Positions 51,740 to 64,000 of a stretch of 64,000 nucleotides of DNA are shown piece by piece. The notes beneath the pieces were generated by a model, which was given only the letters and a program-made list of their open reading frames with translations, ran no database searches and was not told where the DNA came from. Within the stretch, counting starts at the first letter, position 1. Every line of letters begins with the position of its first letter. The DNA is taken from the NCBI RefSeq assembly GCF_002163835.1, contig NZ_CP019331.1:1240001-1304000 (forward strand), in the 5' to 3' direction. The position numbers and the translations under genes are program-made. Source of the stretch: Polaribacter sp. SA4-10. Its GTDB lineage: Bacteria; Bacteroidota; Bacteroidia; Flavobacteriales; Flavobacteriaceae.

Positions 51740-54724
51740 ATGGTAAAAAAGAAAACATCAGTAATAAAAAATATAGAAAAACCAGTTTCAACAAAAATTG
51801 AGACTGTACCGAGCAATAAAAAAAATCCTTTTCTTATTGTAGGATTGGGCGCATCTGCAGGTGGCTTAGAAGCTTTTACAGCATTTTTCTCTTCTGCACC
51901 AAAAAATATGGGTCTCGCATTTGTTATTGTACAACATTTAGACCCAACACATAAAAGTCTTATGGCACATCTTCTAGAAAGCCATACAGATATGCAAGTA
52001 CAAGAAGTTAAGGATTACACTTTAGTGCAACCTAATAATATTTATATAATTCCGCCCAATAAAGATATGGGTATATTTAAAGGCATATTACACCTTATGG
52101 AACCATCTGCTGCCAGAGGGTTTAGGAAACCAATAGATTTTTTCTTTAAGTCTCTTGCTGAAGATCAACAAGAAAAAGCTATTGGAGTTATTTTATCTGG
52201 AACTGGAACAGAAGGTACACTTGGGCTAAAAGACATTAAAGGCCAAGGAGGACTTACTGTTGTTCAAGATCCAATTACAGCTAAATATGATGGCATGCCA
52301 AAAAGTGCAATTTCTGCTGGAGTAGAAGATTTTGTGCTTGAAGTCACTAAAATACCAGATCTACTTGTTAAATACGCTAAAAACAGAACGTTTAAAACAG
52401 CAGGGAGAGCAACAATAGAAGCAACAGTTAATGAGCTGCTTGAAAAAATATTTATCTTACTGCGTAATGAAACTGGCTGTAATTTTGGAGATTACAAAAG
52501 TAGTACTGTCATACGCAGAATAGAGAAGCGAATGGCTTTAAACCAAATAAGTAAATTAGAAAACTATTTAAAATACCTTCAAAAAAATAAAGAAGAAATT
52601 AAAAAATTATTTAATGAATTACTAATTGGTGTTACCCGTTTTTTCAGAAATAAAGAAGCTTACAATACAATTGAAAATACTATTGTTTCACAAATAATTA
52701 GCAAAAAAACAGACGGAGATACTATTCGTATTTGGGTTGCAGGATGCTCTACAGGAGAAGAGGCATATTCCTTAGCCATACTTTTTGATGAAGCTATTAA
52801 CAAACAAACCAAATCCTTAAAGCTACAAATTTTTGCTTCTGATTTAGATGAACGTGCAATAAACATTGCAAGACAAGGTGTTTACCCAGAAACTATTTTT
52901 ACAGATGTAACACCAGAACGTTTGCGACGCTATTTTAAAAATGAAGCTAATACCTATAGAATTAATAAAGAAATTAGAGATAAAGTTATATTTTCTGAGC
53001 ATAACTTAATCAAAGATCCTCCTTTTTCAAAACAAGATTTAGTAAGTTGTAGAAATCTACTTATCTATTTAAATATTGAAGCACAGAAAAAAGTGTTTGC
53101 CATATTTCATTATGCTTTAAACCCAGAAGGAATTTTATTTTTAGGAAGCTCAGAATCTCTTGGTGAATATGCAGATTTATATGAAGTAATAGATAGGAAG
53201 CATAAATTATTCAAACATAAAAAAGTAAATAATAACAAAATACCAGATATTGGCTATTTGTTTAGAGAACCTATAAATATTAAAGTAAACACTGCGGTTA
53301 CTTTACCAAAACGAGAACAATTTGGCAACCTAGCTAAAATTACAGCGCAGTTACTTTTAGACAATTATGCACCTGCTAGTGCAATTATTAATTTAAAAGG
53401 TGAAGCTGTTTATTTTTCTGGAAATACAGGTAAATACTTGCAACCTTCTCCTGGAGAAGCTAGACTTAATATAGTAGACATGGCAAGGGAAGGACTTAAA
53501 ACTGACTTACGTGCCATAATCTCTAAAATTAGAAAAAGCAACACCATAGAAATTAGAAGAAATATTAACGTAAAAACAAATGGTGATCATCAAATAATAG
53601 ATCTGTGTTTAAGACCTTTAAAACTTCTTATTCCTGATGAAGACTATTATATGCTTACTTTTGAAGATCAAGACACACCTTCTATTCTTAGTGAAAATGC
53701 ACAAATAAATAATCCAGCTGAAACTTCAGAATTACAAGCATTAGAGCAAGAATTAATTGCCACAAAAGAATTTTTAAGAGCTACAATAGAGCAGTTAGAG
53801 GTTTCCAATCAAGAGTTAAAATCTTCTAATGAAGAGTTACAATCTAGTAATGAAGAGTTGCAAAGCACTATTGAAGAGCTTGAAACCTCTAAAGAAGAAT
53901 TACAGAGTGTTAACGAAGAAATTGTAACTGTTAATACAGAACTACAAGGTAAAATTGACGAACTAGCACAAGCTTATGATGACATGAACAACTTGCTTGC
54001 CAGTACAGAAATTGGTACTATTTTTCTAGATGCCGATTTAAAAATTAAACGATTTACACCACCAATGTCTAAGATTATAAATCTTATACAAAGTGATGTT
54101 GGAAGACCTGTACAAGACCTCTCATCTAACCTTATTTACGAAGGAATAATAAAAGACGCGAATAAAGTATTGGAAAAACTCACGCCTTTTCAAGCAGCTG
54201 TAAAAAGTAATGATGGTATTTGGTACCAAATGCAGATTATGCCATATCGTACCTCTCTAAATGTTATTGAAGGTGTGGTTATTACTTTTGTTGATATAAC
54301 TAAAGAAAAATTACTTGCTGTAGCACTAAATGAAATTAAAGAGAACTATGAGCATCTCTTAGAGTTAACACAAACAACTGTTTATACTCAAAACAAAAAT
54401 CTTGTTTACACAAGTATGGTACAGAAAGGTGTCGCTTTTCAATCGCAACTATTGGTTGGAAAAACAGATATGGATTTCTTTTCAAAAGAAGATGCAAAAA
54501 AATTAGAAACTATAAAGAATAAAGTCCTTAAAACTGGAAAAACATACAGAAATACCGTTTCGTTATTACTTGGAGGAGCAACTCAATACCAAGACTTAAC
54601 AATAAGACCAATTATTGTAGCTTCAAAAATTACTGGAATTGCTTGTACATCAACAGATATCACAGAGCTGTATCAAGCAGAAAAAAAACTAGAAGACATT
54701 AACAAAAAAATAAATGAATCCTGA
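51740..54724 (+). CDS. CheB-CheR-PAS hybrid signalling protein
   Basis: A 994-residue hybrid. Residues about 30-215 are a CheB methylesterase domain: GLGASAGG with Ser39, VQHLDP with His66, and SGTGTEGTLG with Glu158 where classical CheB has Asp. Residues about 230-490 are a CheR methyltransferase with WVAGCSTGEEAYSLAI and SCRNLLIYLN. A PAS-like part, a long coiled coil (about 665-755, with repeated SSNEELQS) and two further PAS domains follow. Such hybrids work with histidine kinases rather than flagellar chemotaxis. It overlaps the kinase gene by 11 bp, so they act together. Confidence 0.9.
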   Translation: MVKKKTSVIKNIEKPVSTKIETVPSNKKNPFLIVGLGASAGGLEAFTAFFSSAPKNMGLAFVIVQHLDPTHKSLMAHLLESHTDMQVQEVKDYTLVQPNNIYIIPPNKDMGIFKGILHLMEPSAARGFRKPIDFFFKSLAEDQQEKAIGVILSGTGTEGTLGLKDIKGQGGLTVVQDPITAKYDGMPKSAISAGVEDFVLEVTKIPDLLVKYAKNRTFKTAGRATIEATVNELLEKIFILLRNETGCNFGDYKSSTVIRRIEKRMALNQISKLENYLKYLQKNKEEIKKLFNELLIGVTRFFRNKEAYNTIENTIVSQIISKKTDGDTIRIWVAGCSTGEEAYSLAILFDEAINKQTKSLKLQIFASDLDERAINIARQGVYPETIFTDVTPERLRRYFKNEANTYRINKEIRDKVIFSEHNLIKDPPFSKQDLVSCRNLLIYLNIEAQKKVFAIFHYALNPEGILFLGSSESLGEYADLYEVIDRKHKLFKHKKVNNNKIPDIGYLFREPINIKVNTAVTLPKREQFGNLAKITAQLLLDNYAPASAIINLKGEAVYFSGNTGKYLQPSPGEARLNIVDMAREGLKTDLRAIISKIRKSNTIEIRRNINVKTNGDHQIIDLCLRPLKLLIPDEDYYMLTFEDQDTPSILSENAQINNPAETSELQALEQELIATKEFLRATIEQLEVSNQELKSSNEELQSSNEELQSTIEELETSKEELQSVNEEIVTVNTELQGKIDELAQAYDDMNNLLASTEIGTIFLDADLKIKRFTPPMSKIINLIQSDVGRPVQDLSSNLIYEGIIKDANKVLEKLTPFQAAVKSNDGIWYQMQIMPYRTSLNVIEGVVITFVDITKEKLLAVALNEIKENYEHLLELTQTTVYTQNKNLVYTSMVQKGVAFQSQLLVGKTDMDFFSKEDAKKLETIKNKVLKTGKTYRNTVSLLLGGATQYQDLTIRPIIVASKITGIACTSTDITELYQAEKKLEDINKKINES

Positions 54725-56441
54725 AAAATCTATATATAACAAGTTAAGAAAAAGAGCAGAAGCTAGAGTTGCAAGAAATCTAGATTTGCTTAAAGGTTTT
54801 ACTTTGGATAATGCCAAGGCTTTACTACACGAACTTGAAGTGCACCAGATAGAACTGGAAATGCAAAATGAAGAGTTAAGAGAAGCACAAAATCGTCTTG
54901 AAGAAGTGAAAGATCAATATACAGATCTGTTTGATTTTGCTCCTGTAGGGTACTTAGTTTTGGATAAAAAAGGAGTCATTGAAAACATTAATCTTACCGC
55001 CTGTGATCTTTTAGGTGTTGAACGTACATTAATTAAAGGCAAACCGCTTTCTTCTTATATGGAAAATGGGGAATCTCGTACATTGTTCCTAAAGTTACAA
55101 GCTGCTTTCAAAACAGGTAAGCTTGAAGATTTTGAACTTGAAATGAGACATAAAAGCAACGTTTTTTTTAAAGCATCTCTACAAGGTATTATTACGCAAA
55201 ATAAAGAGCAAACAGATTATGTCTGCAGAATTTCCTTTCAAGATATAACTAGTTTAAAAGAAGCGGAAGCATTATTGTTTCAGCATGAAGCCTTACAAAA
55301 AGAAAAAAAAATAATACAGCAATATTTAGATTTAGCGCCTATTCTTTTTCTCATATTAGATTCAGCTAATAATGTACAAATAATTAACCAAAAGGGCCGT
55401 TATTTAATAGGTGAAAAAGTGCAAAATATCATCGGAAAGAATTGGTTTAATAAATTTATAAATGATTTAGATGATAATTCTGTAGTTGAAGATATTATAG
55501 CTAATCATAAAAAAGGAACGATACTAATACCATCTAATTTTGAAAGTAAACTAGAAAGCACTAATAGTGAATCAATTATTATGTCTTGGTCTAATGTTTC
55601 TTTGTTGGATGAAAAAGGAGCGTTTTTAGGAACTTTAATGGCTGGTGAAGATGTTACAGAACGAAAAAAAATAGAAACCCGTAAAGAACTATACACACAA
55701 GATCTTGAAGATATAGTAGAACTAAGAACCAAGAAATTAACGGAAGCTTTACATAATGAGAAAATGGTAAACGAAATGAAATCGGCATTTGTTTCTATGG
55801 CATCTCATGAGTTTAGAACACCATTAACTAGCGTACTATCTTCTGCAATTTTATTAAACAAATACAATACTCTTAAACAATATGATAAACAACCACGCCA
55901 TATTGATAGGATTAAGTCTTCTGTAAAACAACTTACTGATATTTTAGAAGATTTTCTCTCTATGGATAAACTGGAAAGAGGAATTATAAAAACAACTAAG
56001 AATTCTTTTGACTTAAAAATACTTATTAAAGAAATATTAGAGGACCTAAATTGGTCTTTAAAAGAAAAGCAACATATAAACTATAATCACAAAGGTGATG
56101 CTATAGTTCTTTTAGATATAAAAATACTACGAAATATCTTTTTGAACTTAATTACAAATGCTATAAAATACTCAAATACTGATATATTAATTTCTACAAC
56201 TGTTAAAAATGATGTTGTAAATATTGTTTTTATTGATAAAGGAATTGGTATACCAGAAGAAGAGCAAAAACATCTTTTTAGTAAATTCTTTAGAGCAAAA
56301 AATGCTACTAATATTCAAGGAACTGGACTTGGTTTAAGTATTGTTAAGCATTATGTTGATTTACTGGAAGGAGAAATTTCTTTTGAAAGTAAATTAGGAG
56401 AAGGTTCTACTTTTAACATTTCATTACCACAAAAGGCTTAA
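54714..56441 (+). CDS. PAS-domain hybrid sensor histidine kinase
   Basis: A 575-residue cytosolic kinase. A coiled coil (about residues 35-70, LEVHQIELEMQNEELREAQNR) leads into a PAS domain (FDFAPVGYLVLDKKGVIENI) and a second PAS (about 205-320). The HisKA site is His365 in SMASHEFRTPLTS; the ATPase has NLITNAIKYS (N box), DKGIGIPEEEQKHLFSKFF (G1/F) and GTGLGLSIVKHYV (G2). There is no membrane segment and no receiver domain, so phosphate must go to a separate regulator; the receiver-Crp protein at 61037 is a candidate. It is coupled to the CheB-CheR gene. Confidence 0.92.
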   Translation: MNPEKSIYNKLRKRAEARVARNLDLLKGFTLDNAKALLHELEVHQIELEMQNEELREAQNRLEEVKDQYTDLFDFAPVGYLVLDKKGVIENINLTACDLLGVERTLIKGKPLSSYMENGESRTLFLKLQAAFKTGKLEDFELEMRHKSNVFFKASLQGIITQNKEQTDYVCRISFQDITSLKEAEALLFQHEALQKEKKIIQQYLDLAPILFLILDSANNVQIINQKGRYLIGEKVQNIIGKNWFNKFINDLDDNSVVEDIIANHKKGTILIPSNFESKLESTNSESIIMSWSNVSLLDEKGAFLGTLMAGEDVTERKKIETRKELYTQDLEDIVELRTKKLTEALHNEKMVNEMKSAFVSMASHEFRTPLTSVLSSAILLNKYNTLKQYDKQPRHIDRIKSSVKQLTDILEDFLSMDKLERGIIKTTKNSFDLKILIKEILEDLNWSLKEKQHINYNHKGDAIVLLDIKILRNIFLNLITNAIKYSNTDILISTTVKNDVVNIVFIDKGIGIPEEEQKHLFSKFFRAKNATNIQGTGLGLSIVKHYVDLLEGEISFESKLGEGSTFNISLPQKA

Positions 56442-56479
56442 TATTTCATTTAGATTATCTTACTCTAATAGAAAAAACA

Positions 56480-56911
56480 TTATACCTCTTTTACATATTT
56501 AAACACAATTTTCTTAAAATTTAGGAAATCACTTTTAAAAGAATCCATTCTATCTTTAAGTTGACGATGCATTACTCTATAAATTGCATCAAATAATCCT
56601 TTTTCATTTTGTTGCAGCCTATATAATAATTTTTCATGTGCAACAATATCATTCTCTATATACTTAAAGAGGTTGGCATGTAGGTCATCTAAGTAGTCCA
56701 GAATTTTTATAAAATCTTGTTTATGATCATCTTGAGATTTTTTTACCTTAAGTAAATTATCTAAAAGTTGAATCTCATCTTTCCAAAAAGCAATGGTCTC
56801 TAACCATTCTTTACTTTCTAAATGTAAAATATTAAGTCCAACTTCTAATAACATTGCTGCCTTTGAATTTAAAACTTCTGTATTCATGTTTTTAAGTTTG
56901 ATAATTTTCAT
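56480..56911 (-). CDS. Helical cytosolic protein of unknown function
   Basis: A 143-residue, all-helical protein starting MKIIKLKNMNTEVLNSKAAM. It has no signal peptide. Several histidines in helices (ILHLESKEW, DDHKQD, DLHANLF, AHEKLLYR, MHRQLKD) recall hemerythrin-like bundles, but the metal-site spacing cannot be confirmed. The open frame extends to 56941; ATG at 56911 or at 56887 is more likely because the predicted transcript starts near 56959. A dyad promoter at 56964-57006 puts it in the same apparent regulon as the BON protein encoded divergently. Confidence 0.65.
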   Translation of the reverse strand: MKIIKLKNMNTEVLNSKAAMLLEVGLNILHLESKEWLETIAFWKDEIQLLDNLLKVKKSQDDHKQDFIKILDYLDDLHANLFKYIENDIVAHEKLLYRLQQNEKGLFDAIYRVMHRQLKDRMDSFKSDFLNFKKIVFKYVKEV

Positions 56912-56963
56912 TATTAATGAATGTCTTATTCTTCTAATCAAGAAACTAGATCATCAGAAATAC

Positions 56964-57006
56964 AAAGTTTTAACTTTTAAAAACAAAAAAACATGACGGA
57001 AGTCAT
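56964..57006 (-). promoter_or_regulatory. Crp/Fnr-type dyad promoter of the helical protein gene
   Basis: On the minus strand TGACTTCCGTCA (56995-57006) is followed by exactly 23 bp and AAACTTTG (56964-56971), seven of eight matching TAnnTTTG. It reads away from the BON gene. Confidence 0.65.
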
Positions 57007-57061
57007 TAAACCAATCGTTCTAATTGCTAAAAAAAATAAAAAATAAAAAAATCACCACAAC

Positions 57062-57104
57062 TGATGTGAATCATTTCCAGAGACTAAACCCTAAAGTAAA
57101 TTTG
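57062..57104 (+). promoter_or_regulatory. Crp/Fnr-type dyad promoter of the BON gene
   Basis: TGATGTGAATCA (57062-57073), then 23 bp, then TAAATTTG (57097-57104), a full match to the Bacteroidota -7 element. The predicted start near 57109 puts the dyad centre at about -41, the class II activator position. Confidence 0.75.
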
Positions 57105-57142
57105 AAGCAAATAATTATTGTTTAATTAAAATATTATAAATT

Positions 57143-57811
57143 ATGAAAACAGATGTAGAAATTAAAGAAGATGTATTAGATGAATTAGCATGGCAACCTA
57201 GTATTGATGAAACTCAAATTGGAGTTATTGTTGAAAACGGTGTAGTAACCCTTAGTGGTGTAGTTAATAATTACTCTAAAAAACTAGCTGCAGAAAAAGC
57301 AGTAAAAAATGTTGAAGGCGTAAAAGCAGTAGCTGAAGATATTGAAGTTCTTTACGGAATTAGTTACAAAAAAACAGACAAAGAAATTGCAAAAGCTATT
57401 GTAAATGCTTTTGAATGGAACTCTTCTGTTCCTGAAGAAGAAATCTCCATAAAAGTTGAAAATGGTTGGGTTTTTCTATCTGGTGAAGTACAATGGATGT
57501 ATCAAAAAAATGCTGCAAGAAATGCCATTAAAAACTTATTAGGTGTAAAAGGTGTAAGTAATTCTATTAAATTAGAAAATAATATTGAACCCAAAGAAGT
57601 AAAAGATAGAATTAAAAAAGCATTTCATAGAATGGCAACTCTTGATTCAAATGCTATTACTCTTGAAACTCATGGTCATGCTGTTACATTACGTGGTAAA
57701 GTACATTCTATTAAAGAGAAAGAAGATGCAGAAACAGCAGCATATAATGCTCCTGGAGTTTACGACGTTAAGAACGAGCTTAAAATAGAATACAGAACAG
57801 AATATGCTTAA
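57143..57811 (+). CDS. Three-BON-domain protein
   Basis: A 222-residue protein made of three BON domains (about residues 3-70, 78-146 and 150-218). Each has the pattern of a helix, VENGVVTLSGVV- or VENGWVFLSGEV-type strand, a lysine-rich helix and a final valine-rich strand (GVKAVAEDIEV, GVKGVSNSIKL, GVYDVKNELKI). No signal peptide is visible, which is unusual because many BON proteins such as OsmY are periplasmic; this one is probably cytosolic. BON domains are thought to bind phospholipid or membranes and are often stress-induced. It has its own dyad promoter and a strong terminator. Confidence 0.88.
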   Translation: MKTDVEIKEDVLDELAWQPSIDETQIGVIVENGVVTLSGVVNNYSKKLAAEKAVKNVEGVKAVAEDIEVLYGISYKKTDKEIAKAIVNAFEWNSSVPEEEISIKVENGWVFLSGEVQWMYQKNAARNAIKNLLGVKGVSNSIKLENNIEPKEVKDRIKKAFHRMATLDSNAITLETHGHAVTLRGKVHSIKEKEDAETAAYNAPGVYDVKNELKIEYRTEYA

Positions 57812-57844
57812 AACTTATTGTTACTAAGTATTATTTTATTTAGT

Positions 57845-57888
57845 AAATAACCCTGACTTTAGTAATAAAGTCAGGGTTATTTATTTTT
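57845..57888 (+). terminator. Intrinsic terminator of the BON gene
   Basis: A perfect 17-bp stem, 57845-57861 with 57866-57882, has a 4-nt loop and is followed by a T-rich tract on the plus strand. Confidence 0.92.
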
Positions 57889-57905
57889 TTTTAATTCAAA
57901 AAAAA

Positions 57906-57937
57906 AAAAGATAATTCGTTTCTACGAATTATCTTTT
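57906..57937 (-). terminator. Intrinsic terminator of the dodecin gene
   Basis: AAAAGATAATTCGT (57906-57919) pairs perfectly with ACGAATTATCTTTT (57924-57937). On the minus strand it is followed by a long T run (the A run at 57898-57909), so it ends the dodecin transcript. Confidence 0.85.
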
Positions 57938-57999
57938 AATATTAATAAGAAGTATCTTATCTTAAAACTGACCTTAGAAGCTAACTAAAAAAACGTAAC

Positions 58000-58209
58000 T
58001 CAATGAGAATCCATAATACCAAAACATACTTTTGTAGTTACTCTATATTCTGCTATTTTATTATTATTTACAGTCACTTGCATATCTTTAACATATACCG
58101 ACTTTATATTTTTTACCGTTTTTGATGCTTCGTTAATAACATTTTGTACTGCATCTTCAAAACTCACGGTAGAGTTTCCTAAGACTTCAATTACCTTTAA
58201 TACTGACAT
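58000..58209 (-). CDS. Dodecin family flavin-binding protein
   Basis: A 69-residue dodecin, starting SVLKVIEVLGNSTVSFEDAV and continuing EASKTVKNIKSVYVKDMQV, then an EYRVTTKVCF strand. Dodecins are small beta-alpha-beta-beta proteins that assemble into hollow dodecamers and store or buffer flavins such as FMN or riboflavin. Length and layout are normal. It is transcribed towards the BON gene, ends at a perfect hairpin and has a dyad promoter at 58241-58283. It probably belongs to the stress regulon of this island. Confidence 0.93.
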   Translation of the reverse strand: MSVLKVIEVLGNSTVSFEDAVQNVINEASKTVKNIKSVYVKDMQVTVNNNKIAEYRVTTKVCFGIMDSH

Positions 58210-58240
58210 GATATTTAATTTTATATTGTTAATAAAGTAT

Positions 58241-58283
58241 TAAAGTTAACGGTTAATACAATCTTAAGAAATGACCTTGGTCA
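58241..58283 (-). promoter_or_regulatory. Crp/Fnr-type dyad promoter of the dodecin gene
   Basis: On the minus strand TGACCAAGGTCA (58272-58283), then exactly 23 bp, then TAACTTTA (58241-58248), seven of eight matching TAnnTTTG. The predicted start is about 27 bases before the dodecin ATG. Confidence 0.75.
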
Positions 58284-58323
58284 CTACCTCTTCTTTATAC
58301 TATTATAATTCATAGAAAACCAT

Positions 58324-58345
58324 TTAACTGACCTAGGTCAGTTAA
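58324..58345. promoter_or_regulatory. 22-bp perfect palindrome with dyad core
   Basis: A perfect 22-bp palindrome whose core TGACCTAGGTCA (58329-58340) is the same kind of dyad as the ones in the promoters, flanked by TTAAC and GTTAA. No -7 element lies at the 23-bp distance on either strand. It may be a second, upstream site for the dodecin promoter, 57 bp from the first. Confidence 0.6.
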
Positions 58346-58489
58346 ATAATTTATGCTTTTATTGTTTAAAAATAAAATAGATAGATTAGAAGCGAGGTGA
58401 ATAACCTTAATTGTTTTGCCTTCAAACTGGAAGTTTAGCTTCCCGTTTCTAATTTTAATTTTATAATTTATTAAAAAAAATCACGCAAC

Positions 58490-58532
58490 TGATCTAGATC
58501 ATTTTCTAAATTAAAATACGGGTATATCTTAG
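58490..58532 (+). promoter_or_regulatory. Dyad promoter, repeat unit 1
   Basis: TGATCTAGATCA (58490-58501), 23 bp, TATCTTAG (58525-58532). Confidence 0.7.
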
Positions 58533-58537
58533 CTGTA

Positions 58538-58746
58538 TAATTAATAGGAAACGTTCTTTGAAAAACATATAAGTATAGATTTTGATGTAGTAATACCCCA
58601 AAATCTTAAAGGTGTCTGACTTCTTTTTAAACCTTGTTTTTTTTGTGTTGACTTAGTAATAAGTATGTACCTAAAAGCTGTAAGTGGTCCTAAAGTAATA
58701 CAATGCCTTTTAGAAAACCAGAACATTTTGGTGTTCTGGTTTTTAT
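58538..58746 (+). ncRNA. Putative small RNA, copy 1
   Basis: Predicted from the promoter 58490-58532 to the terminator stem AAAACCAGAACA (58714-58725) with TGTTCTGGTTTT (58732-58743). Internal pairing: AGATTTTG with CAAAATCT, and CTAAAAG with CTTTTAG. The T tract before the centre has eight T here and seven in other copies, so no reading frame is kept. No ribosome site or conserved start is seen. Transcription is inferred. Confidence 0.6.
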
Positions 58747-58979
58747 TTAAAAAATAATTAAAATATTGATCTTTTTTTGCTGTAAAGTGAGTAAGATCGT
58801 TATGAAGGGATTGACTTAATTTTTCGTCAAAAATTCATTTGTTTTATATTCTAGCAATAGCGTGTTTAAACACATTGAATTCATGGTTTAAAATAAATTA
58901 ATCTCAACATAGGAAACGGGAGGCTAAGCTTCCCGTTTCTAATTTTAATTTGATAATTTATTAAAAAAAATCACGCAAC

Positions 58980-59022
58980 TGATCTAGATCATTTTCTAAA
59001 TTAAAATACGGCAATATCTTAG
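58980..59022 (+). promoter_or_regulatory. Dyad promoter, repeat unit 2
   Basis: TGATCTAGATCA (58980-58991), 23 bp, TATCTTAG (59015-59022). Confidence 0.7.
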
Positions 59023-59027
59023 CTGTA

Positions 59028-59238
59028 TAATTAGTAGGAAACGTTCTTTGAAAAAGATATAAGTATAGATTTTGATGTAGTAATACCCCAAAATCTTAAA
59101 GGTGTCTGACTTCTTTTTAAACCTTGTTTTTTTTGTATTGACTTAGTAATAAGTGTGTACCTAAAAGCTGTAAGTGGTCCTAAAGTAATAAAATACCTTT
59201 TAGAAAACCAGAACATTTTGGTGTTCTGGTTTTCTTTT
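59028..59238 (+). ncRNA. Putative small RNA, copy 2
   Basis: As copy 1. Terminator stem AAAACCAGAACA (59204-59215) with TGTTCTGGTTTT (59222-59233), followed by CTTTT. The internal T tract has eight T. The hairpin before this unit (58913-58939) has one A-to-G change that keeps a G-U pair. Confidence 0.6.
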
Positions 59239-59467
59239 AAAATAATTAAAGTACTGGTCTCTATTTGCTGTAAAGCGAGTAAGATCGTTGTGAAGGGATT
59301 GACTTAATTTTTAGTCAAAAATTCTTTTGTTTTATATTCTAGAAATAGCGTGTTTAAACACATTGAATTAATGATTTAAAATAAATTAATCTCAACATAG
59401 GAAACGGGAAGCTAAGCTTCCCGTTTCTAATTTTAATTTGATAATTTATTAAAAAAAATCACGCAAC

Positions 59468-59510
59468 TGATCTAGATCATTTTCTAAATTAAAATACGGC
59501 TATATCTTAG
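59468..59510 (+). promoter_or_regulatory. Dyad promoter, repeat unit 3
   Basis: TGATCTAGATCA (59468-59479), 23 bp, TATCTTAG (59503-59510). Confidence 0.7.
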
Positions 59511-59515
59511 CTGTA

Positions 59516-59723
59516 TAATTAATAGGAAACGTTCTTTGAAAAACATATAAGTATAGATTTTGATGTAGTAATACCCCAAAATCTTAAAGGTGTCTGACTT
59601 CTTTTTAAACCTTGTTTTTTTGTGTTGACTTAGTAATAAGTGTGTACCTAAAAGCTGTAAGTGGTCCTAAAGTAATAAAATACCTTTTAGAAAACCAGAA
59701 CATTTTGGTGTTCTGGTTTTCTT
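59516..59723 (+). ncRNA. Putative small RNA, copy 3
   Basis: As copy 1. Terminator stem 59691-59702 with 59709-59720. The internal T tract has seven T. Units 3 and 4 share the CTTAAAAAAAAACAATTAAAG tail sequence variant (59721 onward), so they are the closest pair. Confidence 0.6.
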
Positions 59724-59957
59724 AAAAAAAAACAATTAAAGTACTGGTCTCTATTTGCTGTAAAGCGGGTAAGATCGTTGTGAAGGGATTGACTTAATTT
59801 TTAGTCAAAAATTCTTTTGTTTTATATTCTAGCAATAGCGTGTTTAAACACATTGAATTAATGATTTAAAATAAATTAATCTCAACATAGGAAACGGGAA
59901 GCTAAGCTTCCCGTTTCTAATTTTAATTTGATAATTTATTAAAAAAAATCACGCAAC

Positions 59958-60000
59958 TGATCTAGATCATTTTCTAAATTAAAATACGGCTATATCTTAG
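59958..60000 (+). promoter_or_regulatory. Dyad promoter, repeat unit 4
   Basis: TGATCTAGATCA (59958-59969), 23 bp, TATCTTAG (59993-60000). Confidence 0.7.
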
Positions 60001-60005
60001 CTGTA

Positions 60006-60213
60006 TAATTAATAGGAAACGTTCTTTGAAAAACATATAAGTATAGATTTTGATGTAGTAATACCCCAAAATCTTAAAGGTGTCTGACTTCTTTTTATAC
60101 CTTGTTTTTTTGTATTGACTTAGTAATAAGTGTGTACCTAAAAGCTGTAAGTGGTCCTAAAGTAATACAATGCCTTTTAGAAAACCAGAACATTTTGGTG
60201 TTCTGGTTTTCTT
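60006..60213 (+). ncRNA. Putative small RNA, copy 4
   Basis: As copy 1. Terminator stem 60181-60192 with 60199-60210. The internal T tract has seven T. One A-to-T change in the CTTTTTATACC region is private to this copy. Confidence 0.6.
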
Positions 60214-60448
60214 AAAAAAAAACAATTAAAGTACTGGTCTCTATTTGCTGTAAAGCGGGTAAGATCGTTGTGAAGGGATTGACTTAATTTTTAGTCAAAA
60301 ATTCTTTTGTTTTATATTCTAGCAATAGCGTGTTTAAACACATTGAATTAATGATTTAAAATAAAATTAATCTCAACATAGGAAACGGGAAGCTAAGCTT
60401 CCCGTTTCTAATTTTAATTTGATAATTTATTAAAAAAAATCACGCAAC

Positions 60449-60491
60449 TGATCTAGATCATTTTCTAAATTAAAATACGGCTATATCTTAG
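60449..60491 (+). promoter_or_regulatory. Dyad promoter, repeat unit 5
   Basis: TGATCTAGATCA (60449-60460), 23 bp, TATCTTAG (60484-60491). Confidence 0.7.
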
Positions 60492-60496
60492 CTGTA

Positions 60497-60706
60497 TAAT
60501 TAACAGGAAACGTTCTTTTAAAAATATAAAAGTATAGATTTTGATGTAGTAATACCCCAAAATCTTAAAGGTGTCTGACTTCTTTTTAAACCTTGTTTTT
60601 TTGTGTTGACTTAGTAATAAGTGTGTGCCTAAAAGCTGTAAGTGGTTCTAAAGTAATAAAATGCCTTTTAGAAAACTAGAACACTTTAGTGTTCTGGTTT
60701 TCTTTT
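60497..60706 (+). ncRNA. Putative small RNA, copy 5
   Basis: The most diverged copy. Its terminator reads AAAACTAGAACACTTTAGTG onward (60672-60701); the changes turn a U-G pair into C-G at the top of the stem and a C-G into a U-G lower down, so the hairpin is kept. It is followed by CTTTT. Other differences lie in loops or single strands. Confidence 0.6.
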
Positions 60707-60965
60707 AAAAAATAATTAAAATATTGATCTTTTTTTGCTGTATAGCGAGTAAGATCACTATGAAGGGATTGACTTAATTTTTAGTCAAAAATTCTTTTGT
60801 TTTATATTCTAGCAATAGCGTGTTTAAACACATTGAATTAATGATTTAAAATAAATTAACCTCAACATAGGAAACGGGAAGCTAAGCTTCCCGTTTCTTT
60901 TTTAATAAGGTTTTAATTTCTATAAAATTTAAAAAATAGTTATTCAATTTCACTTTGTAAAAGCG

Positions 60966-61003
60966 ATATTATTATCCGTCTAGGTATAAACGAATAATAA
61001 TAT
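60966..61003. other. AT-rich hairpin after the receiver-Crp gene
   Basis: ATATTATTAT (60966-60975) pairs with ATAATAATAT (60994-61003), with a further CGT-ACG pairing after one mismatch. It is a possible 3' end structure for the gene at 61037 on the minus strand; no long T run follows. Confidence 0.4.
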
Positions 61004-61036
61004 TTCTGAAGTAAAAGTATTCAATATCAAATTAGT

Positions 61037-62110
61037 TTAATCAATAAAATTTGCTAAATACTCTAAACTTTCTTTGTCTTTCAAAATTATTTTTCTACTA
61101 GAATTAATGGTTATTAATCCCTCTTGCTTAAACTGTGTTAACATTCTAATAGCAGTCTCTGTAGCTGTACCAATAATTCCTGCAAAATCTTCTCTAGAAA
61201 TATTTATACCAGCACTTTCTTTATCAATTAAAAGCCCATTATCAAGCAATTTTAATAACGTTTTAGCAGCCCTCTGTCTTACGGGTGCATATGCCATGTT
61301 TTTTAATTTCTCTTGAACATCTATTAAATTATTAGAAATCATATTTATAAATTTACTCGAAACAACCTTGTTCTCATAAAGTAGTTTTATAAAATCTGTC
61401 TTTGGTATTTCACAAATTTCTGCATTCTTCAAAACCACTGCAGAATCAACATAAACACCTTTATCGCTTAATAAGGATAATTGGCCAATAAAATCTCCAG
61501 GACCATAAAGACCTGTTACAAATTCTTTCCCAGAATCTGTTGTTAGAAAAGTTTTTATGGCACCACTTTGAATAAAGTATAAATTATGAGCTGCTGAACC
61601 TTCCATATAAATACTTTCCTTTTTTATATAATTATAAATACTTAAATCTTGAGTTAAACTCTCAAAACTTATGTACTCTGATGCTTCATCTATAAAATCA
61701 TTTAGACCTTTAACATTTTTTGAAAACTCTTTTTTTAAAAAATCATGTTTTTTTAAACGAGATTCTATTGCCTTAAGTAAGTCTTTTTCTTCAAATGGTT
61801 TGGTTAAATAATCATCTGCTCCCAAATTCATACCTTTTCGTATATCTGACTTTTCTGTTTTGGCTGTTAAAAATATAAAGGGAACACTTGCCGTTTTTTT
61901 TGAACTACTTAAAGCCTCTAACACTCCATATCCATCTATATCTGGCATCATAATATCACAAATAATCAAGTCTGGTTTAACTTTGTTTGCTATCTTAATA
62001 CCAACTTTACCATTTTGAGCTGTTGCAACATTATAATTTGCTAATTCGAGTATCTCAGCAATATTCTCCCTAACATCTTCATTATCTTCAATTATTAATA
62101 CTTTTTCCAT
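61037..62110 (-). CDS. Response regulator fused to Crp/Fnr-type transcription factor
   Basis: A 357-residue regulator. Residues 1-120 are a receiver domain: acidic residues 8-12, phospho-acceptor Asp52 in IICDIMMPD, Thr82 and Lys104. Residues about 150-270 are a cyclic-nucleotide-binding-like domain, with SGAIKTFLTTDSGKEFVTGLYGPGDFIGQLSLLS. Residues about 285-355 are a Crp-type helix-turn-helix: ISREDFAGIIGTATETAIRML, where Glu and Arg four apart match the base-contacting pair of Crp and Fnr. Fnr-type N-terminal Fe-S cysteines are absent, so it is controlled by phosphorylation, not directly by oxygen. It has its own dyad promoter, so it may regulate itself. Confidence 0.92.
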   Translation of the reverse strand: MEKVLIIEDNEDVRENIAEILELANYNVATAQNGKVGIKIANKVKPDLIICDIMMPDIDGYGVLEALSSSKKTASVPFIFLTAKTEKSDIRKGMNLGADDYLTKPFEEKDLLKAIESRLKKHDFLKKEFSKNVKGLNDFIDEASEYISFESLTQDLSIYNYIKKESIYMEGSAAHNLYFIQSGAIKTFLTTDSGKEFVTGLYGPGDFIGQLSLLSDKGVYVDSAVVLKNAEICEIPKTDFIKLLYENKVVSSKFINMISNNLIDVQEKLKNMAYAPVRQRAAKTLLKLLDNGLLIDKESAGINISREDFAGIIGTATETAIRMLTQFKQEGLITINSSRKIILKDKESLEYLANFID

Positions 62111-62312
62111 CGTAATTTATATATTAATTTGTAATAAATATATTTCTTAAAATATAATTTTCCATAAACAAATAGACTTTGCATTAGTTTCTATATATAA
62201 TTCTCACCTTAAACTTACTCTTCTAATTTTTGAATATTTTTATTAAAAAAGTTAAAACAAAGGGTATACCAGGTTTTATTTTTCATTTATAACACAAAAT
62301 ACATTAGAGCTT

Positions 62313-62355
62313 TAAAATTACGCTTATGTATTAAAAAACAATATGATAACTATCA
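62313..62355 (-). promoter_or_regulatory. Crp/Fnr-type dyad promoter of the receiver-Crp gene
   Basis: On the minus strand TGATAGTTATCA (62344-62355), 23 bp, then TAATTTTA (62313-62320), seven of eight matching TAnnTTTG. The leader to the ATG at 62110 would be about 200 nt. This suggests autoregulation. Confidence 0.65.
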
Positions 62356-62502
62356 TAATCTATAATAAATATTTTTTAATTGATGATTTTTTTATGTATC
62401 GTATAAGGAATTGGTAGCTGCTATGATGGTTTATAAAAAACTTACGTCAATCTAAATTAAGGTACAGAATTTACTGTGTGCTACCTCATCGCTAATTTAG
62501 TG

Positions 62503-62619
62503 ATGGAACAAAATCATATTTCAGAACAATGCGAATTTGTCAAAACACAAAAACAAGTTGTTCTTAAATTATTAAAAAATAAAAGAGATAAAATCTGGAA
62601 AAATTACCTAGAATTATAG
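62503..62619 (+). CDS. Possible small basic ORF in the 62,111-62,644 gap
   Basis: The 534-bp gap between the regulator and the ATPase contains the dyad promoter at 62313 and little else. A 38-residue frame starts ATG at 62503: MEQNHISEQCEFVKTQKQVV, then lysine-rich to LEL. The in-frame sequence is open back to 62461. No known domain and no promoter or partner evidence; it could be a remnant or chance. Confidence 0.2.
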   Translation: MEQNHISEQCEFVKTQKQVVLKLLKNKRDKIWKNYLEL

Positions 62620-62644
62620 CTTAAAAAATCAAATAATTTCAAAC

Positions 62645-64000
62645 TCAAAGTGTACCACCAAAACGTTTAATAATTTGTACTAAAACTAAAGAACTGACAG
62701 AAAATATTAGGATTGTTAAAAATTGATTGGACGATAAAGGTATCAACGAGAGCGCTTTAGAAATAACAGGTGTAATATATGCCAGGTATGTTAAAAACAC
62801 ACATAAAACAATTGCTACCCAAACCCAAATATTGGTAGTAACTTCATTTTTAAAAAAGGATAAATGACGTGCAGGCATATTAAAAACATTAAGTAGTTGA
62901 GCAGAAATAAGTGTATAAAAACCCATATTATTTATTTGATTTGTAGAGAGCTTTAATACAAAAAAAGAATATACAGTAATACCCAGTACTGCTATACTTA
63001 TACTTATACCATAAATTATTGTTGTTCGCCAATGTTGTTTTGTCATTATTGGTTCTTTAGCGTTTTTTGGCGGTAATTGCATTATATCCTTCTCTCCTTT
63101 TCCTAATCCTAAAGCTAATGCTGGAAAAATATCTGTTATAACATTTAAAAATAGAATTTGTAAGGGTAATAATGGAGATGGTAAGTTTAGAATTGCAGCG
63201 ACACCCACAGAAAGTATTTCTGCAAAATTACTCGACAAAAGATATACTACAAACTGACGAATATTCTGAAAAATAACTCTTCCTTGTTTAATCGCCAATT
63301 CAGTTGCTATAAATTTATCATCTAACAGTATAATGTCTGCTGCTTCTCTTGCAGCATCAGTGCCTCTAATTCCCATAGCAATTCCTACATCTGCTTTCTT
63401 TAATGCTGGAATGTCATTAATACCATCTCCTATCATTCCTACAATATTGTTGTTTTTTTGAAAGAACGTTATAATGGCAATTTTTTGCTCAGGAGTTACT
63501 CTTGCAAAGACAGAAGCATTAAGAAATTGTTCTTTTTCATTTTTAGAAAGTGTTTCAATATTTTGAAAGGCATTCCCCAAAAAAACGTTCTCTTCAAACC
63601 TGTTATCAATTAGTAGTCCTATATCTGTAGCAATTTTCTTTGCAGTCCCAGGATGATCACCAGTTACCATTATTACCTTTATTCCAGCTTTTTTATAACT
63701 TTCAATTATTGGTTTTACATCTTTTCTTGCAGGATCAATAAAACCGATAACACCTATAAACGTAAGATGTTCTAATAAATCTTCCTTTTCTGGTTTTGAT
63801 ATTGTTTTTTTATAAGCAAAAGCTAATGTTCTAAAACCTTTTGAGGCCAAATCATTCACTTTATCACTCCATTCTTCTTTGGTATCAAAAAGTTTAGATT
63901 GCCCATTTTTTAAAATCATATTGCATTTGGTAACAACATTTTCAAAAGCTCCTTTCATATATATACAATAACCATCAATATTAGAATGCGCGGTTATCAT
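62645..64000 (-). CDS. Cation-transporting P-type ATPase, C-terminal part
   Basis: The window holds the last 451 or so residues of a P-type ATPase; the frame is open at 64000 and the first Met there is internal, so the N terminus lies outside. Present are the nucleotide-binding YMKGAFENV motif, GFIDPARKDVKPII, the TGDHPGTA motif, the hinge MIGDGINDIPALKKADVGIAMG and six C-terminal membrane helices with LPLQILFLNVITDIFPALALG. This layout is that of the calcium-type (P2) family of ATPases rather than heavy-metal CPx ATPases. It would export Ca2+ or another cation. It is transcribed towards the receiver-Crp gene and may belong to its regulon. Confidence 0.9.
   Translation of the reverse strand: MITAHSNIDGYCIYMKGAFENVVTKCNMILKNGQSKLFDTKEEWSDKVNDLASKGFRTLAFAYKKTISKPEKEDLLEHLTFIGVIGFIDPARKDVKPIIESYKKAGIKVIMVTGDHPGTAKKIATDIGLLIDNRFEENVFLGNAFQNIETLSKNEKEQFLNASVFARVTPEQKIAIITFFQKNNNIVGMIGDGINDIPALKKADVGIAMGIRGTDAAREAADIILLDDKFIATELAIKQGRVIFQNIRQFVVYLLSSNFAEILSVGVAAILNLPSPLLPLQILFLNVITDIFPALALGLGKGEKDIMQLPPKNAKEPIMTKQHWRTTIIYGISISIAVLGITVYSFFVLKLSTNQINNMGFYTLISAQLLNVFNMPARHLSFFKNEVTTNIWVWVAIVLCVFLTYLAYITPVISKALSLIPLSSNQFLTILIFSVSSLVLVQIIKRFGGTL

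Follow-up and report, generated by a model that had tools for sequence, protein, structure and literature searches.

A five-unit tandem array in Polaribacter sp. SA4-10 with the signature of a modular structured RNA family of Flavobacteriaceae

The stretch analyzed here (the window), 64,000 nucleotides (nt) of Polaribacter sp. SA4-10, contains a tandem array of five units that almost certainly encode a structured noncoding RNA family. Each unit comprises a promoter, a leader and two homologous modules of ~170 nt, as seen from the fact that a covariance model of the second halves also finds the first halves. Tandem Repeats Finder placed the array at 58424-60906, with a period of 490, 5.1 copies, 95% matches and a score of 4473, and a repeat search gave spacings of 490, 488, 490 and 491 nt from unit to unit. 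Five head-to-tail units of 488-491 nt had been proposed earlier from the letters of the DNA and its open reading frames (the sequence-only reading), and this layout was confirmed, as were the T tract of 8, 8, 7, 7 and 7 letters in copies 1 to 5 and the presence of a dyad, a −7-like element and a 12-base pair (bp) stem in every copy. The five units share 92-99% identity with one another, and a search with one unit against the whole 3.44-Mb genome gave zero matches beyond the array. No protein-coding frame was conserved between copies or species across 12 units, five from the window and seven from relatives: the longest ATG frame differed from unit to unit, spanning 2-38 codons on the plus strand and 18-81 on the minus strand of the predicted RNAs. 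The earlier statement that no frame is conserved was confirmed.

Two homologous modules with a covarying fold

Two covariance models were used, R1 from ten second halves (3' modules; alignment A1) and R2 from 72 modules. In a search of 446 kb, R1 matched the 5' halves of all five window units at full length, with scores of 40.6-45.9 bits and E-values of 9e-6 to 7e-7. Conservation extended to the 3' half of each unit (58745-58945 in unit 1, likewise in the others), which forms a second copy of the same fold and brings the array to ten modules, a possible remnant aside. The 12-bp stem that the sequence-only reading took for a terminator was present in all five copies with a loop of 4 nt, but its assigned role was weakened: rather than ending the RNA, it closes module 1 and is the counterpart of the closing hairpin of module 2. 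Matches on the opposite strand (for example at 59400-59514) are due to the closing hairpin being palindromic, and the counts exclude them.

Three elements make up the module fold. A short hairpin carries a GNRA loop, GNRA also forms the apex of a long, irregular rod, and UUCG frequently caps the closing hairpin of 11-13 bp. On A1 (10 sequences, MAFFT; RNAalifold), 20 of 45 pairs changed on both sides, as compared to 7.2 ± 2.0 in shuffles (0 of 500 as high) and 2-7 in slid structures. In the 72 model-aligned modules, an alignment that is fitted to the model and hence biased towards structure, both-side changes occurred in 44 of 45 pairs versus 32.4 in shuffles, and in 592 cells versus 172 shuffled and 70-127 slid. 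The strong covariation of the module pairs, looked for by the covariance-model analysis that had been proposed earlier as a check, exceeded both the shuffled and the slid controls, as is characteristic of a structured RNA family. Folding z-scores against shuffles were −5.5 for module 58765-58940 and −4.1 for the unit RNA 58538-58947. GNRA tetraloops were found at the two apices in 68 and 77 of 94 modules (4.8% of all 4-mers fit this pattern) and UUCG loops at the closing hairpin in 27, near-identical copies being included in these counts. With the closing hairpin set aside, 81 non-redundant modules contained zero runs of three columns conserved above 80%, and a structural role of the modules is favored for this reason.

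Across 39 loci, 51 arrays held 100 modules (the remnant at 58308-58450 included): 15 arrays had one module, 28 had two, five had three, two had four and one had six, the single-module class being over-counted where a diverged first module escaped detection. The array and head counts cover matches longer than about 100 nt (120 nt for the 81-module consensus); L145, which duplicates L045, was omitted, and the apical-loop counts omit the remnant. This remnant, a weak R2 match of 31.5 bits (E 0.0012 in the window and 0.0082 in 434 kb), suggests that a degenerate module precedes the array. A further weak R2 match at 57846-57936 (29.7 bits, E 0.0026), 3' of the BON-domain gene, is probably the terminator hairpin of that gene.

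Promoter heads and predicted transcript ends

Because neither R1 nor R2 includes the promoter, the head upstream of the modules constitutes a separate test of the family. In 31 of 39 loci, the first module was preceded at 55-110 nt by a TGAN6TCA dyad, as compared to 2.7% of 17345 control positions, and in 22 of 39 a boxA-like GTTC[AT]TTNA lay at most 45 nt before this module, as compared to 0.27%. The combination of dyad and boxA spaced by 50-70 nt was found in 22 of 39 loci versus 0.017% of control positions. A locus was scored if any of its arrays passed, so that multi-array loci are favored. The 5' module was missed in L023, L056 and L142, for which reason the head sits further upstream of the first match there. 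The dyad is at activator distance from the promoter, and TA and TTAG of the −7 element were invariant in all 12 aligned heads, in which the leader holding the boxA-like stretch was also conserved; the usual −7 element of Bacteroidota is TAnnTTTG. The Crp/Fnr-type site and promoter that the sequence-only reading had assigned to each unit thus recur, at similar spacing, in other genera.

The ribosomal RNA (rRNA) leader of the same genome carries GTTCATTGA, and within this leader GTTCATTG has three occurrences, located −514, −354 and −109 relative to the 16S gene; those at −514 and −354 lie closely 3' of the −7-like TATATTTG and TATCTTTG. Among 20 other genomes searched, 17 had a 16S match, and 10 of these showed GTTCNTT[GA] in the leader, of which up to 450 nt was covered; three of the seven without it had less than 210 nt of leader on the contig. 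The boxA consensus of gamma-proteobacteria is given as GYTCTTTAANA in one study (PMC5725501). The boxA-like stretch resembles the rRNA antitermination signal and may work as such a signal in the RNA family. Three promoter-like sequences were also noted upstream of 16S rRNA (locus L062, genome about 3429900-3430500), two followed by GTTCATTG within some 30 nt and the third by GTTCAGAG, as if each rRNA promoter brought its own boxA-like stretch.

A Crp/Fnr-type site in front of a multi-copy, intergenic and strongly structured RNA is also what one would expect of a base-pairing small RNA (sRNA) acting on messenger RNAs under low oxygen or stress, with Qrr-like dosage and an FnrS-like trigger, and the conserved boxA-like leader stretch could then be its seed. 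The 81 modules, however, showed no conserved unpaired run, fold and structural loops being conserved instead, and large modules strung together in one RNA are atypical of base-pairing sRNAs. We consider this explanation rather unlikely, although it fares best among the alternatives.

Judging from the positions of the −7 element and the 3' hairpin, each unit most likely yields one RNA of at least ~408 nt, and read-through from unit 1 into the next unit is possible. The final hairpin of units 1-4 is followed by CTAATTTTAATTT. In Lutibacter agarilyticus, which has six modules behind a single promoter, CTAAAAAA stands after each of the five inner hairpins, and the last alone runs into T8 (three of them in the stem); in all three Lutibacter loci (L042, L045 and L046) a T tract occurs solely after the last hairpin. 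Overall, T made up 5.7 of the 10 letters after last hairpins versus 3.9 after inner ones (p 1.5e-8), related arrays among the 51 not being independent in this comparison. The sequence-only reading had proposed an RNA of ~210 nt with the 12-bp stem as its 3' end, which would leave the rest of the unit as spacer. Its multi-copy noncoding RNA gene stands, and in copies 1, 2 and 5 the stem is followed by TTTTTATTT or TTTTCTTTT and forms a plausible intrinsic terminator; T runs also follow the inner hairpins of other two-module units, for example in L137 and L122. The length of 210 nt is weakened by the second half, a conserved module in its own right with a conserved hairpin at its end, by the inner hairpins of longer arrays, which lack T tracts, and by copies 3 and 4, where merely TTTTCTTAAAA follows the stem. 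We therefore regard the shorter RNA as unlikely.

Table 1. Features of the array and its surroundings (window coordinates unless a locus is named)
Feature	Position	Strand	Remarks
Unit 1 Crp/Fnr-type dyad TGATCTAGATCA	58490..58501		sequence
Unit 2 dyad TGATCTAGATCA	58980..58991		sequence
Unit 3 dyad TGATCTAGATCA	59468..59479		sequence
Unit 4 dyad TGATCTAGATCA	59958..59969		sequence
Unit 5 dyad TGATCTAGATCA	60449..60460		sequence
Unit 1 −7-like element TATCTTAG	58525..58532	+	23 nt 3' of dyad
Unit 1 boxA-like GTTCTTTGA	58553..58561	+	about 20 nt into the predicted RNA
Unit 2 boxA-like GTTCTTTGA	59043..59051	+	sequence
Unit 3 boxA-like GTTCTTTGA	59531..59539	+	sequence
Unit 4 boxA-like GTTCTTTGA	60021..60029	+	sequence
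Unit 5 boxA-like GTTCTTTTA	60512..60520	+	one change
Predicted unit 1 transcript	58538..58945	+	~408 nt; ends from −7 element and 3' hairpin positions
Unit 1 module 1	58575..58743	+	R1 40.6 bits, R2 80.3; closing hairpin is the terminator of the sequence-only reading
Unit 1 module 2	58765..58940	+	R1 175 bits (copy was in model), R2 150.7; ends in closing hairpin
Unit 2 module 1	59065..59233	+	R1 44.4 bits, R2 83.5
Unit 2 module 2	59253..59428	+	R1, R2
Unit 3 module 1	59553..59720	+	R1 45.9 bits, R2 86.6
Unit 3 module 2	59743..59918	+	R1, R2
Unit 4 module 1	60043..60210	+	R1 42.0 bits, R2 81.1
Unit 4 module 2	60233..60409	+	R1, R2
Unit 5 module 1	60534..60701	+	R1 40.9 bits, R2 75.7
Unit 5 module 2	60723..60898	+	R1, R2; only window copy with CTTTTTT after final hairpin
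Possible degenerate module remnant before array	58308..58450	+	ends in imperfect closing hairpin 58424-58450
BON-domain gene, three BON stretches	57143..57811	+	Pfam; upstream of array
Dodecin gene	58000..58209	-	Pfam; dyads TGACCTTGGTCA (58272) and TGACCTAGGTCA (58329) upstream
Receiver, cyclic-nucleotide (cNMP)-binding and Crp-type helix-turn-helix (HTH) protein	61037..62110	-	Pfam; candidate dyad regulator
Lutibacter arrays	L042 8201-9300, also L045, L046	- (L042)	arrays of 6, 3 and 3 modules, each with one promoter; Hsp20 gene downstream

Distribution and genomic surroundings

A DNA similarity search covered 59 genomes, the present one and 35 others of the genus included. The search of same-genus genomes had been proposed along with the sequence-only reading; by DNA similarity, on which the genus count is based, two of the 35 contained the unit. 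One of these (G029) had three units of 80-81% identity and the other (G016) one of 70%, in both cases directly 3' of the same BON-domain gene, from which the array of the window is separated by the dodecin gene. Four further members of the genus in the family and order samples gave zero covariance-model matches. Two weak DNA matches, L024 and L016, were obtained in G001; the former was rejected, as it lies within an open coding frame at a locus without an R2 match. With a profile of the unit, full-length homologues of 432-459 nt were recovered from Kordia aestuariivivens, an Algibacter metagenome-assembled genome, Winogradskyella aurantia and Flagellimonas allohymeniacidonis, and three Lutibacter loci showed tandem copies of the second half only, behind a single promoter-like head. 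Using the BON protein as query in named genomes, 37 loci were fetched, and R2 (E <= 0.001) matched only L028, L029, L042, L045, L056 and L057 among them; L046 was matched by R1, though outside this R2 set.

In Flavobacteriaceae, a sample of 397 genomes from 237 genera (the present genome included) gave R1 matches in 60 genomes and 50 genera at the loose threshold of E <= 0.01, about four of the genomes being possible chance matches at this threshold and model E-values being rough. R2 (E <= 0.001) matched 11 of 296 genomes in the order sample, six in the family (the present one included) and five outside it, and 4 of 296 in the phylum sample, all of them Flavobacteriaceae. The matches outside the family were rejected: L157-L160 combine the 3' end of coding DNA with an ordinary terminator, L156 is a terminator-like hairpin between genes, and no boxA-like head was seen by eye in the 320 nt before these five matches. 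No convincing module match was thus found outside Flavobacteriaceae in the order and phylum samples.

The neighboring genes were surveyed in 29 loci, nine from the first searches and 20 stretches around top R1 matches (L144 and L145 coming from one genome), over about 6 kb, one representative per neighbor family being scanned with Pfam. Dodecin was found in 13 loci, a PAS histidine kinase in 11, a receiver-Crp regulator in 11, PEP-synthase-like PPDK in 10, DUF2267 in eight, a cation P-ATPase in seven, a phosphoribosyltransferase in seven and an alpha/beta hydrolase in six. BON was a neighbor in 11, six of which had been fetched through BON. Seven loci contained 21 universal stress protein genes, and GH130, Hsp20 and baeRF occurred in five loci each. 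This gene set resembles the mycobacterial DosR regulon, and our reading is that the RNA sits in a dormancy-like stress island. In Myxococcus, universal stress proteins and a P-type ATPase were tied to oxygen limitation in a study of a low-oxygen regulon (PMC11841059); that oxygen is the signal for the present RNA is guessed from the types of genes and sites. In L133 and L139 (5.3-6.8 kb) the RNA lies beside DUF302 and, in L139, also OmpA-type genes, with neither BON nor universal stress protein genes, from which it follows that the neighborhood was reshuffled around the RNA. In the window (51740-64000) and L151, the island comprises the PAS kinase, BON, dodecin, receiver-Crp regulator and P-type ATPase genes, a putative large CheB/CheR-like protein and, further on, two divergent putative Hsp20-like genes, and several of its genes have TGAN6TCA upstream. 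The 994-amino acid gene at 51740-54724 contains a 21-bp tandem repeat (53803-53904) coding for a Glu/Ser-rich segment.

Within the genome, 9 of 11 distinct TGAYYTAGRTCA sites fell within 20 kb in this region, and strand matches genome-wide numbered 19 versus 5 for the reversed control pattern. The nine local sites belong to the five units, the dodecin promoter, the space between the divergent putative Hsp20-like genes, the upstream region of a putative PAS kinase-like gene and a gap between divergent genes. Relatives of the receiver-Crp protein at 61037-62110 lay near the RNA in the 11 loci counted above. Four Crp-type proteins passed the Pfam cut-off in the genome, with one fragment below it; three of them have recognition-helix stretches that are alike, and an N-terminal CxxC is present in one. 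Two receiver-Crp fusion regulators were noted (genome positions 2441339-2441545 and 1301061-1301276), as was an FNR-like protein with an N-terminal CxxC (1713304).

The array might be a cis-acting leader or attenuator of the next gene, given that the two same-genus relatives have a putative HtrA-like gene next to it on the same strand and Lutibacter agarilyticus an Hsp20 gene. In the window, however, the next gene is convergent, the downstream genes vary among loci and many arrays end in a T-rich hairpin, which makes this very unlikely. Still more improbable is selfish or passive repeat DNA of the REP/BIME kind with a functionless RNA: the units are ended by palindromes and resemble each other more closely inside one genome (92-99% and 90-98%) than across genomes (76-80%), but they show covariation and fixed heads, have zero copies elsewhere in the genome, and one closing-hairpin pattern had zero exact matches in viral contigs.

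Proposed role and comparison with known systems

In the explanation that we prefer, a regulator of the Crp/Fnr superfamily (the neighboring receiver-Crp protein, a paralogue or an FNR-like protein) would turn the RNA on together with the surrounding stress genes. NusB/E bound to boxA would let RNA polymerase complete this untranslated, hairpin-rich RNA of at least ~408 nt, which would then act in trans, either as a structural RNA or by binding protein (titrating or scaffolding), its dose being set by the modules per transcript and by the number of genes, here five. To this chain as a whole we assign a probability of roughly 0.65. The dosage is open to direct study, since copy number varies naturally, with one, three and five genes in three genomes of one genus and one to six modules per array.

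Several observations weigh against this explanation. The RNA is patchy, both in the genus (G029 and G016 only) and in the family (60 of 397 genomes). The boxA test failed in 17 of 39 loci and the dyad test in eight, and no such head motif was seen in the failing loci other than the three with a missed 5' module. The final hairpin of units 1-4 carries merely a broken T tract, so that longer, multi-unit read-through transcripts are possible, and the inner hairpins of several two-module units, those of the window included, have short T runs, so that partial stopping may occur there. It is conserved shape only that speaks for protein binding, and the start, end, length and induction of the RNA are what we infer. 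With four Crp-type proteins in the genome, there are several candidate regulators of the dyad.

More tentatively, the RNA may be a lineage-specific, modular machine of a flavobacterial low-oxygen or dormancy program. Its gene would be amplified and each transcript would carry one to six modules, boxA would recruit the rRNA antitermination complex for bulk synthesis, and the modules would assemble with each other, a stress protein or the ribosome into a particle for storage, hibernation or sequestration.

A comparison with Rfam 15 (4227 models, gathering thresholds), which collects intergenic structured bacterial noncoding RNAs of the same general kind, gave zero families at gathering score in the window and one transfer RNA alone in 20 relative loci. 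The best sub-threshold matches in the array were sau-19 (29.8 of 80 bits) and sraA (26.2 of 56). Kinship with the Qrr or csr families, which the sequence-only reading had named as multi-copy precedents, found no support in this comparison. Titrating RNAs of the CsrB/CsrC type also consist of repeated structural units and can bind many copies of a protein, but they do so through short GGA loops; the units described here are mostly 170-200 nt long, with three hairpins and GNRA or UUCG apical loops, and the apical loops of the 94 modules did not contain the many GGA motifs of that type. FnrS is an FNR-activated sRNA and MTS1338 a DosR-dependent mycobacterial sRNA. Like the array RNA, these are noncoding RNAs that have an activator site of low-oxygen type or lie among genes of dormancy type, whereas the array RNA is modular, multi-copy and boxA-headed; sequence kinship with these two was checked through Rfam only. 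With rRNA leaders and other boxA transcripts it shares a boxA-like GTTCTTTGA or GTTCTTTAA early in an untranslated RNA. We know of no other bacterial RNA in which folded domains are repeated in tandem, in variable number, behind a boxA-like signal.

OLE, GOLLD and ROOL, as described in one report (PMC12286853), are likewise long, untranslated, structured RNAs without a settled role; the array RNA differs in stringing together homologous ~170-nt modules and in having no Rfam match. Rfp1-89 of Flavobacterium psychrophilum, Rfp18 included, are also noncoding RNAs of Flavobacteriaceae (PMC9723704). The main text of that study does not contain "crp" and uses "tandem" in other senses only, which sets these RNAs apart by description, not by sequence. 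Among the best matches in the open-licence literature we recognized no description of this RNA, which is weak evidence of absence.

In summary, a structured RNA family unmatched in Rfam 15 occurs in Flavobacteriaceae, a major marine and soil family, in about 50 of the 237 genera sampled. It offers a possible test case both of boxA antitermination outside rRNA and of a stress regulon with a noncoding RNA among its members in Bacteroidota, whose regulatory RNAs are little known. Structured noncoding RNA is a known kind of bacterial molecule; its modular, boxA-headed, tandem form is new to us.

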